From: a virus
Length of the DNA: 64,000 nucleotides
Reading direction: 5' to 3' (one strand)
Virus record (IMG/VR): IMGVR_UViG_3300038701_001167
Span: 1-64,000 of that record
Part shown: in pieces, positions 5,406-7,565 of the stretch
Layout of the letters: every line of letters begins with the position of its first letter
How positions within the stretch are numbered: the first letter of the stretch is position 1
Translations under genes and position numbers: made by a program
Notes under the pieces: generated by a model
The model's input: the letters and a program-made list of their open reading frames with translations, nothing else
Database searches by the model: none
What the model was told of the DNA's origin: nothing

Positions 5406-7565
5406 TCAGGACAAAGCGTAATTCGCAACCAAGACAGACTCTGTCAGGTCGCCATACTTTTCCACTGTGAGCTGATCCTTGGAGATCTGGTTCACGATGA
5501 ACTGCAACAGGTTGGACCGTGCAATCTCGCTCAGGATCTGGTTGTACTGGCGACGGAGATCGTTGCCATAGTGTGGCAAAACCCTAAAGCAATCATGAAC
5601 TGCGATCACCGGGAAAGGTTTCTTGGGAAGTGTCTCGATCATGTCCAGAACAACATGACGATCCACCCACCAAAGGTTTTCAGCATCCAGCAGTTCAAGG
5701 ATACGAGCACTCAGAAAACCGGACTGTAAATAGTTGTCCCAGAGGGTCATCACAAGTTGATCATGTTCCCGGTCCATCGAGCTTTTTGGCTCATAGAGAC
5801 CAGACTTCAGCATTATGGTGACATCAGTGATCTTGTTGAAGTTGAAGTAGCACCGGCGTTCCATTTCACGGACAACCATGCCATCCACAGAGTGAGTGGT
5901 GTTGGCGCCAAGAGATAGATCGATATCAACCGGTGCCTGAACCTTACGGGGAACCATGTAAGTCTCGCCAAGGAAGGTGATTGGTTCTTCAATCGTGTTC
6001 ATGACCTTGACGTGGACATGAAAGTTGTCAGGCAGGACCCAAGAATAGGATGTTGCTTCAGGGTCAGCCAAGGACAGGAGAGACTGGTTCAGATCCCAGA
6101 TACCGGGAGCCTGTTCATTCATCACCTGATAGAAGGCATCGAGACGTTCACCTTCACCGAAGACTTCCTTGGGCTTGGCAGTGGAACCGTACAATGCGTT
6201 GTGTTCAACGAGGGTTCGTTACTCCCTCGCCCGTCCTGATGGCTCACTTCAGGACTGCTGCATGTTACCATACAGACCAGACTATATCTTCATCCTCTTA
6301 CGAGGAGTTCTGCGCTTCGGACCACTTGGTCCTACTCCCTTACGGGATAGTCGTTGCACGTTCCGATACTTCAACCACTCGTCGACACATCTCGATAAAA
6401 TCGAAATTTGTCAAATCACCCTTGGCTCTGTTGGCAGCCCATGAGAGCCACTGCACGTTGCCCTTGACGTAACCTAGAGATGGTTCAATCTTGTCCAGTG
6501 AAGGACAAAGCGGGTGTTTCTTTTCAATCACGAAAGCACAACCTGTTGCGGCGCATTTTCGGTCTTGTGAGTGCATAAGCTCGTAGAGATAGTCCTCATC
6601 AATATCAGGGATAGCCTGATTGTACTTATTGGCTCTGCCTTTGGCCTCAGTGATCCTACCTCGAATGAGGGACATCAACTTTCGGTCTTCTGGCGGAACT
6701 TTCTTGAGTTTTCCTGTACCTTGATATCCTCGTCCATGCTTTTCGGAATAGGCTTTCCGATAGGCTCTGGCTTTCTCTGCGTTACAGATTTTACAGTATG
6801 AGTGATATTGCTGATATGAGGCGTGTCTGAAGTCATTGGACTTCTTCCAGTTCTTATTCAGCCTGGCTTTGGTGAACTCTTGAAGAGGTTTTTCTATGCC
6901 ACATTCTTTGCAGCTACGAGTGGTTGCGTTATCCATATAAGCTCTCTTGTTTTGCTTATACGGTTGTATCGGCTTCGCTCAGGATTGTCCACACCATTAT
7001 GTGTTGGGAGGTTCCCTGAATTCACAGAATTGCGTATCACCTGTTACCAGGTGAGTGACCCCTATGCAGTTAAGGTCATCACAGCGGCTTTGGCATCACT
7101 ACGTGTGATTCCACCGGTGCCATCCACAACAGCGTCATCGCCTTCGACATAGCCGAAGTCTCCGGACGCAAGGATGTCCCGCATCAGGTTGTAGACGTTG
7201 GTGTAGAGGTCTTCACGATTGCCTGTGTCGACCACGTTGCAGAGGCGGCCAGACTTCTCGCAACCAATCAACACAGCCAGCAGCTGAGCCCCTGAAGCAG
7301 TGGCATCAAGGCTGATAGGGTAGGTGATGCTCTCACCCTTAATGGCTTTGCGGTATGCAAGGCAACCAGTGAAGAAGAGAGCTGGTTCAGCAGCCTCTTT
7401 GTTGAGAGCCCGGAAGATGGGGCTTTTGTTCAGATCGTCTGCTTGCGTGATGATCCCTTCAACGGTTTTGAACCAGTCGAGGCGTGCATCCCATGTCTCT
7501 TTATCGAGGCCATAGTTCGAAGCGATATCCAGCATCAGGTACTCGATAGGAGTGAAAGTCTGCAT
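5406..7565 (-). CDS. Early RNA polymerase subunit RNAP2 (N4 gp16-like), split by an intron
   Basis: C-terminal catalytic part of a T7-family single-subunit RNA polymerase, encoded in two exons: 7565-7073 and 6196-5406 (minus). Joined, they give 427 residues. Exon 1 starts at ATG 7565 with AAGGA upstream. Motif A is LDATASGAQLLAVL, motif B [15 protein letters not shown] across the splice site, motif C VHDCFRVL. Joining as proposed restores the R-x3-K-x7-Y spacing of motif B seen in T7 RNAP (R627, K631, Y639). In N4 the homologous pair RNAP1/RNAP2 transcribes middle genes. Without splicing, exon 1 meets a TAG about ten bases into the intron, so catalysis depends on splicing. Confidence 0.9.
6197..7072 (-). 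mobile_element. Group I intron in RNAP2 motif B
   Basis: 876-nt intron. The 5' exon end UGACCU pairs perfectly with intron GGGUCA (6 bp, U-G wobble at the cleavage site), the classical P1/guide pairing, and the intron ends in G. Core signatures on the minus strand include AAUUCAGGGAACCU and GACAAUCCUGAGCGAAGCC (P4-P6 type), CAACGACUAUCCC with GGGAGUAGG (P8 region), and AAGAUAUAGUC (3' strand of P7). The HNH gene sits between the 5' and 3' core halves. The insertion point lies within codons for the catalytic O-helix, a typical conserved target for homing. Confidence 0.9.
6340..6936 (-). CDS. Intron-encoded HNH homing endonuclease
   Basis: 198 residues. An N-terminal zinc-finger-like CKECGIEKP and YCKICNAEKARAY segment (four cysteines) is followed by a C-terminal HNH-type core, CPSLDKIEPSLGYVKGNVQW then NRAKGDLT, as in phage intron HNH enzymes. 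Expected to cut intronless RNAP2 alleles and drive homing. The last codons (ATTIP-stop) lie inside the intron core, with the TAA in the loop of the P8-like hairpin. A 7-bp hairpin TATAAGC/GCTTATA just before the ATG holds the AAGAGAG ribosome site in its loop, which may damp translation. Confidence 0.88.
   Translation of the reverse strand: MDNATTRSCKECGIEKPLQEFTKARLNKNWKKSNDFRHASYQQYHSYCKICNAEKARAYRKAYSEKHGRGYQGTGKLKKVPPEDRKLMSLIRGRITEAKGRANKYNQAIPDIDEDYLYELMHSQDRKCAATGCAFVIEKKHPLCPSLDKIEPSLGYVKGNVQWLSWAANRAKGDLTNFDFIEMCRRVVEVSERATTIP

Follow-up and report, generated by a model that had tools for sequence, protein, structure and literature searches.

The closest described counterparts of the locus considered here are in the N4-like phages JWAlpha and JWDelta, whose RNAP2 was reported in 2014 to be interrupted by a gene, with its function questioned and the interruption not called an intron (PMC3915230). 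Pseudomonas phage ZC08 has been described as having a homing endonuclease in its RNAP2 (PMC5418858), homing endonuclease activity has been demonstrated for the gp210 intron of the jumbo phage PhiPA3 (PMC11620839), and a group I intron interrupts the td gene of Vibrio phage pVa5 (PMC5746245). Group IA2 introns, of which a GUA between P7.1 and P7.2 is a mark (PMC3428280), include those of the phiI/W31 class in DNA polymerase genes. In N4 itself, RNAPII (gp15 and gp16) is an early product that performs middle transcription (PMC4496689). A search of the open-licence literature yielded no description of any T7-superfamily RNA polymerase with a group I intron at motif B.

The window analyzed here, a stretch of 64,000 nucleotides (positions 1 to 64,000 of IMGVR_UViG_3300038701_001167, a 72,475-bp contig), comes from a virus represented by a metagenomic record only. 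On its minus strand RNAP2, the catalytic subunit of the N4-like middle RNA polymerase, is split by an insert (Table 1) that is very probably a group IA2 intron capable of self-splicing and of mobility, interrupting a Ser codon of motif B (the O helix) behind its first base: the conserved core is complete, the exon junction is exact, core helices covary, the encoded endonuclease appears to be under purifying selection, and the intron is more similar to that of one relative than the host gene is. A 3429-aa ORF further along would, from its size, be the virion RNA polymerase by which N4-like phages (Schitoviridae) are recognized.

The JWAlpha/JWDelta interruption resembles this one in lying at motif B of an N4-like RNAP2 and in being a group I intron that encodes a homologous HNH ORF (48% identity), but is inserted 8 nt upstream, inside a Val codon. 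ZC08 also has a mobile element in an N4-like RNAP2, but at motif C (after VHD), and tblastn found no homolog of the window HNH ORF in it. In PhiPA3 gp210, too, an intron and an HNH endonuclease lie near catalytic residues of a phage RNA polymerase gene, although that gene encodes a multi-subunit RNAP beta rather than a T7-superfamily enzyme. The pVa5 intron is likewise a group I intron with an HNH ORF in an N4-like phage, with a core similar by blastn, but its host is the thymidylate synthase gene. The phiI/W31-class DNA polymerase intron shares the P7.1/P7.2 connection via GUA, the U-G wobble in P1, the terminal G, an HNH ORF in P6a overlapping P7 and P7.1, a UAA at the intron start and a conserved polymerase host; it differs in its site (674 in E. 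coli numbering; 881 in phiI/W31) and in having no P2, which the window intron has. As in Pf-WMP3 (PMC3428280), and much as in T4 td (PMC3073962), the window ORF runs into P7 at its end and terminates within the P7.1 loop.

Table 1. Features of the RNAP2 locus and related genes, in window coordinates.
Feature	Coordinates	Strand	Basis or remarks
5' exon of RNAP2	7073..7565	-	Start to ...AAVMT plus base 1 of Ser codon; Pfam RNA_pol 2.3e-14
3' exon of RNAP2	5406..6196	-	..SLYGS.. to stop; phrog_2051 3.1e-88, positions 141-401
Group I intron, IA2, ending in omegaG	6197..7072	-	876 nt; RF00028, ORF-less fold P1-P9.2, covariation
P1 exon strand UGACCU	7073..7078	-	
P1 internal guide sequence GGGUCA (first 6 bases of stretch)	7053..7061	-	
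P2 hairpin CACCUG-GUAA-CAGGUG	7038..7053	-	ORF-less fold
P3 5' strand UUCUG, pairing with 6308-6312	7025..7029	-	ORF-less fold
P4/P5 domain, UCAGG 7019-7015 pairing with CCUGA 6983-6979	6979..7019	-	ORF-less fold
HNH/endonuclease VII-like ORF, 198 aa, in P6	6340..6936	-	phrog_1035 3.8e-31; invariant columns in 10 homologs
J6/7 and P7 5' strand ACGACUAUCC, within last codons of HNH ORF	6345..6354	-	P7 invariant in 18 of 18 introns
P7.1 hairpin, ORF stop codon in loop, GUA linker to P7.2	6333..6349	-	ORF-less fold
P7.2 hairpin GGACC-AAGU-GGUCC	6319..6332	-	Two-sided changes at 5 of 5 pairs (18 introns)
P3 3' strand CAGAA	6308..6312	-	ORF-less fold
P8 hairpin	6293..6306	-	ORF-less fold
J8/7 and P7 3' strand GAUAUAGUC	6280..6288	-	Invariant in 18 of 18 introns
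P9 hairpin	6258..6275	-	Two-sided changes at 6 of 7 pairs (18 introns)
P9.1 and P9.2 hairpins	6209..6254	-	ORF-less fold
RNAP1, other subunit of N4-type RNAPII	8797..9645	-	phrog_2166 3.4e-93
Giant ORF, 3429 aa	39037..49326	+	Length; fits N4-like virion RNA polymerase by size

The 5' exon ends in ...GTGATGACCT at 7073, and the 3' exon starts with CATTGTACGG at 6196. Both match the RNA polymerase family phrog_2051, the 5' exon over positions 1-140 (1.4e-44), so that the two ORFs divide the profile cleanly between positions 140 and 141. The spliced reading of 427 aa aligns end to end with N4 RNAP2 (PDB 6dt7_B; E 1.4e-106), gap-free across the junction, which lies within motif B just before SL-Y-G; after exon joining, one frame holds both motif B (R-x3-K-x7-Y-G) and motif C (HD). 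An initial annotation of this DNA had proposed a group I intron at 6197-7072 in an N4-type RNAP2, in motif B and with the R-x3-K-x7-Y spacing kept after joining. Its boundaries proved exact (7072..6197, last base G at 6197), the phrog_2051 matches of both exons and the 6dt7_B alignment bear out its choice of host gene and position, and the P1 it described (UGACCU with GGGUCA, U-G wobble at the splice site), like the terminal G, is present. The comparison with intronless relatives that it proposed is also favorable: in 411 phage records a single RNAP2 segment spans 80% or more of the spliced query, and RNAP2 of phage phiAxp-3 is likewise free of an interruption (PMC4837373). A related-locus search of viral contigs with the spliced RNAP2 protein gave no match.

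A covariance-model search, another check put forward in that annotation, was positive by E-value but fell short of the curated threshold: in a focused scan the intron matches RF00028 (Rfam) with 42.6 bits and E 2.8e-9, under the curated cut-off of 50 bits, and a scan of the full window at that cut-off gave no match. It is the single RF00028 match in the whole 72.5-kb record. The HNH ORF appears to depress its score; ORF-less introns of the same family are above the cut-off (L065 motif C, 76.1 bits; RCIP0099 DNA polymerase, 70.6 bits). With the ORF excised, the predicted fold has nested helices P1-P6, P7.1, P7.2, P8, P9, P9.1 and P9.2 (labeled by hand); P7 is a pseudoknot, which nested fold prediction is unable to display. 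The core from P3 to P9 is conserved, with P7 pseudoknotted to P3, and P7.1 and P7.2 are joined by the GUA expected of IA2 (GGGA-GUA-GGACC). No convincing P10 pairing was found in the window intron. The automatic Rfam placement of the ORF in P8 was rejected: the 5' strand of P7 falls inside the 3' end of the ORF, which puts the ORF in P6.

Relatives were collected by tblastn with the HNH ORF, blastn with the intron and DNA patterns, and 18 related introns were used to score 22 core pairs. Changes on both sides were found at 16 of these, among them pairs of P7.2 and P9 (Table 1); P8 aligns poorly (61% paired). The covariation score was 0.553, compared with 0.177 for shuffled alignments, a test that relatedness inflates, and at most 0.152 for slid ones, a test in which relatedness is preserved. 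In 15 of the 18 introns, whose exon sequences differ, P1 comprises 6-8 pairs and has a U-G wobble where exon and intron meet; in the other three, the Vibrio and HJ05 introns among them, it has only 4 bp. P1 alone is weak evidence, as 5.9% of T positions in the window allow a P1-like pairing of 6 bp or more. The whole core, judged by the RF00028 E-value, its being the sole match in the record and the covarying helices, is not a product of chance.

Could RNAP2 instead be a genuinely split gene? The published annotation of JWAlpha and ZC08 implies this, and records of interrupted phages show two RNAP2 CDS flanking an endonuclease: a free-standing HNH gene would have cut RNAP2 in two, with each part translated on its own and the products assembling with no splicing step, a further division of an enzyme that in N4 already consists of two subunits, RNAP1 and RNAP2 (PMC4496689). 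At the upstream insertion site, the 3' piece even begins with ATG (the Met of VMT). In the window, however, the 3' piece has no starting ATG, only a TTG inside the 3' exon, and a product begun there would lose the O-helix residues MTS, whereas joining the exons by splicing rebuilds motif B precisely. A complete group I core with covarying helices and a P1 that pairs to a varied exon is also more than a free-standing gene needs, and separate translation seems quite improbable.

The HNH ORF of the preferred self-splicing intron has an N-terminal CxxC...CxxC and a C-terminal SLDxI..GY.xGNVQW..W..NRAKG motif, and further PHROG matches to phrog_3322 (1.2e-20) and phrog_3118 (HNH; 4.2e-7). A Pfam search gave no family above its cut-off, and a PDB sequence search no relative. 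A clear catalytic His is missing from the HNH motif, which has DK instead of DH, and the AlphaFold model is poor (pLDDT 61). Compared with its L065 homolog (84% protein identity), the ORF has a dN/dS of 0.076 at a dS of 1.36, near saturation, consistent with purifying selection. That the intron is dead, with splicing lost and RNAP2 function lost or supplied otherwise, is less probable still, given this low dN/dS, the intact P7, P7.2 and P9, and the open frames and catalytic motifs kept in both exons.

Introns at the site used in the window (site 1, after base 1 of codon 6 from the motif B Lys) are found in Acinetobacter phage XC38 (L006) and in L065, L067 and L068, the last without its 5' part; the L065 and L067 stretches look near-identical. 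Another DNA pattern match to this site, L066, was judged to be a chance match. Site 2, inside the Val codon 8 nt upstream, is occupied in N4-like phages (Burkholderia HN02, Achromobacter JWAlpha/JWDelta, L053/L058, Vibrio phi 1, pVco-5 and pVco-7) and in T7-like RNA polymerases (Drael01, 4AB-P, PPWS1/2, L047, L050, L051/L052 and L064). The initial annotation had not counted a site in an N4-type motif B among known intron positions, which underestimates how common such introns are: at this site or close to it, RNAP2 motif B is interrupted in at least seven isolated N4-like phages, as is motif B of several T7-like RNA polymerases, and these interruptions are present in GenBank. Klebsiella phage KPN234 (L013, junction 2894/3678) also belongs with the T7-like site 2 cases, but its junction is irregular: motif B there gives KRPS-MTYFY and is offset by one base from the others, which may reflect a shift of the site or damage to the exon. 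L048 and L060 also have a group I intron in motif B of a T7-like RNA polymerase, where a junction at the expected site yields no clean reading frame.

Introns with similar 3' domains are found in the same helix of family A DNA polymerases, after codon 5 in RCIP0099 and in codon 6, phase 1, in Aeromonas phage HJ05, whose P1 is weaker. The HJ05 intron appears to be in the DNA polymerase O helix at the codon and phase used in the window, and the 3' exons are alike (TTGTATGG in HJ05, TTGTACGG in the window); in Aeromonas phage PT2 the interruption of the DNA polymerase gene appears to fall in codon 2. One possibility, which we put forward tentatively and with some doubt, is that the O-helix codons (motif B, K-x7-Y-G), which T7-superfamily RNA polymerases share with family A DNA polymerases, are a common landing zone, with related IA2 introns having crossed between RNA and DNA polymerase genes as well as between the N4-like and T7-like phage groups. 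Neither a tree of the HNH proteins nor one of the ribozyme 3' domain discriminates between site 2 and the DNA polymerase introns as the origin of site 1.

The window and L065 introns are 81.5% identical, compared with 65.9% and 59.9% for the flanking exons. The simplest reading of these sequences suggests intron transfer between phages and recent horizontal spread; the ribozyme and ORF may also be more tightly constrained than the exons, which could account for part of the gap. No clear co-conversion tract was found around the insertion site in this pair. Among the T7-like RNA polymerases, near-identical motif B introns occur as a 240-nt form without an ORF (L050, minus strand) and a 696-nt form with one (L064 and L047); L050 and L064 share the ribozyme 3' domain, and L050 may represent natural loss of the ORF or a form without it. 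No relative of the window HNH ORF was found by tblastn in L047 or L064.

A second group I intron is seen in RNAP2 directly after motif C (..HD) in L065 (3410-3655, minus strand), in L067 and in ZC08 (L011, near 4011); with the motif B intron, RNAP2 of L065 and L067 carries two.

If the window intron is active, the RNAP2 pre-mRNA, presumably early and made by the virion RNA polymerase, would fold and splice itself by two transesterifications, using P1 with its U-G wobble and omegaG. Translation of the spliced mRNA would give intact RNAP2, which would join RNAP1 as RNAPII for middle transcription. A UAG at intron nt 9-11 is in the path of ribosomes running past the 5' splice site, and unspliced RNA would yield an inactive 167-aa fragment. 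The HNH protein may cut or nick intronless motif B, with repair copying the intron in. It is a reasonable inference, as the initial annotation supposed, that middle transcription depends on splicing: the middle-gene polymerase would be made only after its own mRNA had spliced, placing a ribozyme step in the early-to-middle switch.

Database records of several phages with an interrupted motif B give the gene as two pieces and name no intron. In N4-like and T7-like phages, introns would account for these "split RNA polymerase" annotations, and the polymerases are then probably intact and dependent on splicing. The intron class is well known, and the point of interest is its recurrent use of motif B at two sites in two phage families: separated by 8 nt within a single catalytic helix, the two sites offer a tractable system for studying target choice and site switching by homing elements.

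Two further loci, L045 (2384-2474) and L062 (150-247), have group I-like 3' ends followed by ATGAC..TAYGG, in genes unlike RNA polymerase. In the window itself, positions 7062-7565 match phrog_20599, a family of 149 positions named RNA polymerase, with the exon aligned to positions 1-146. This family seems to be made of RNAP2 halves truncated at the intron site, in which case a database family may owe its shape to the intron.
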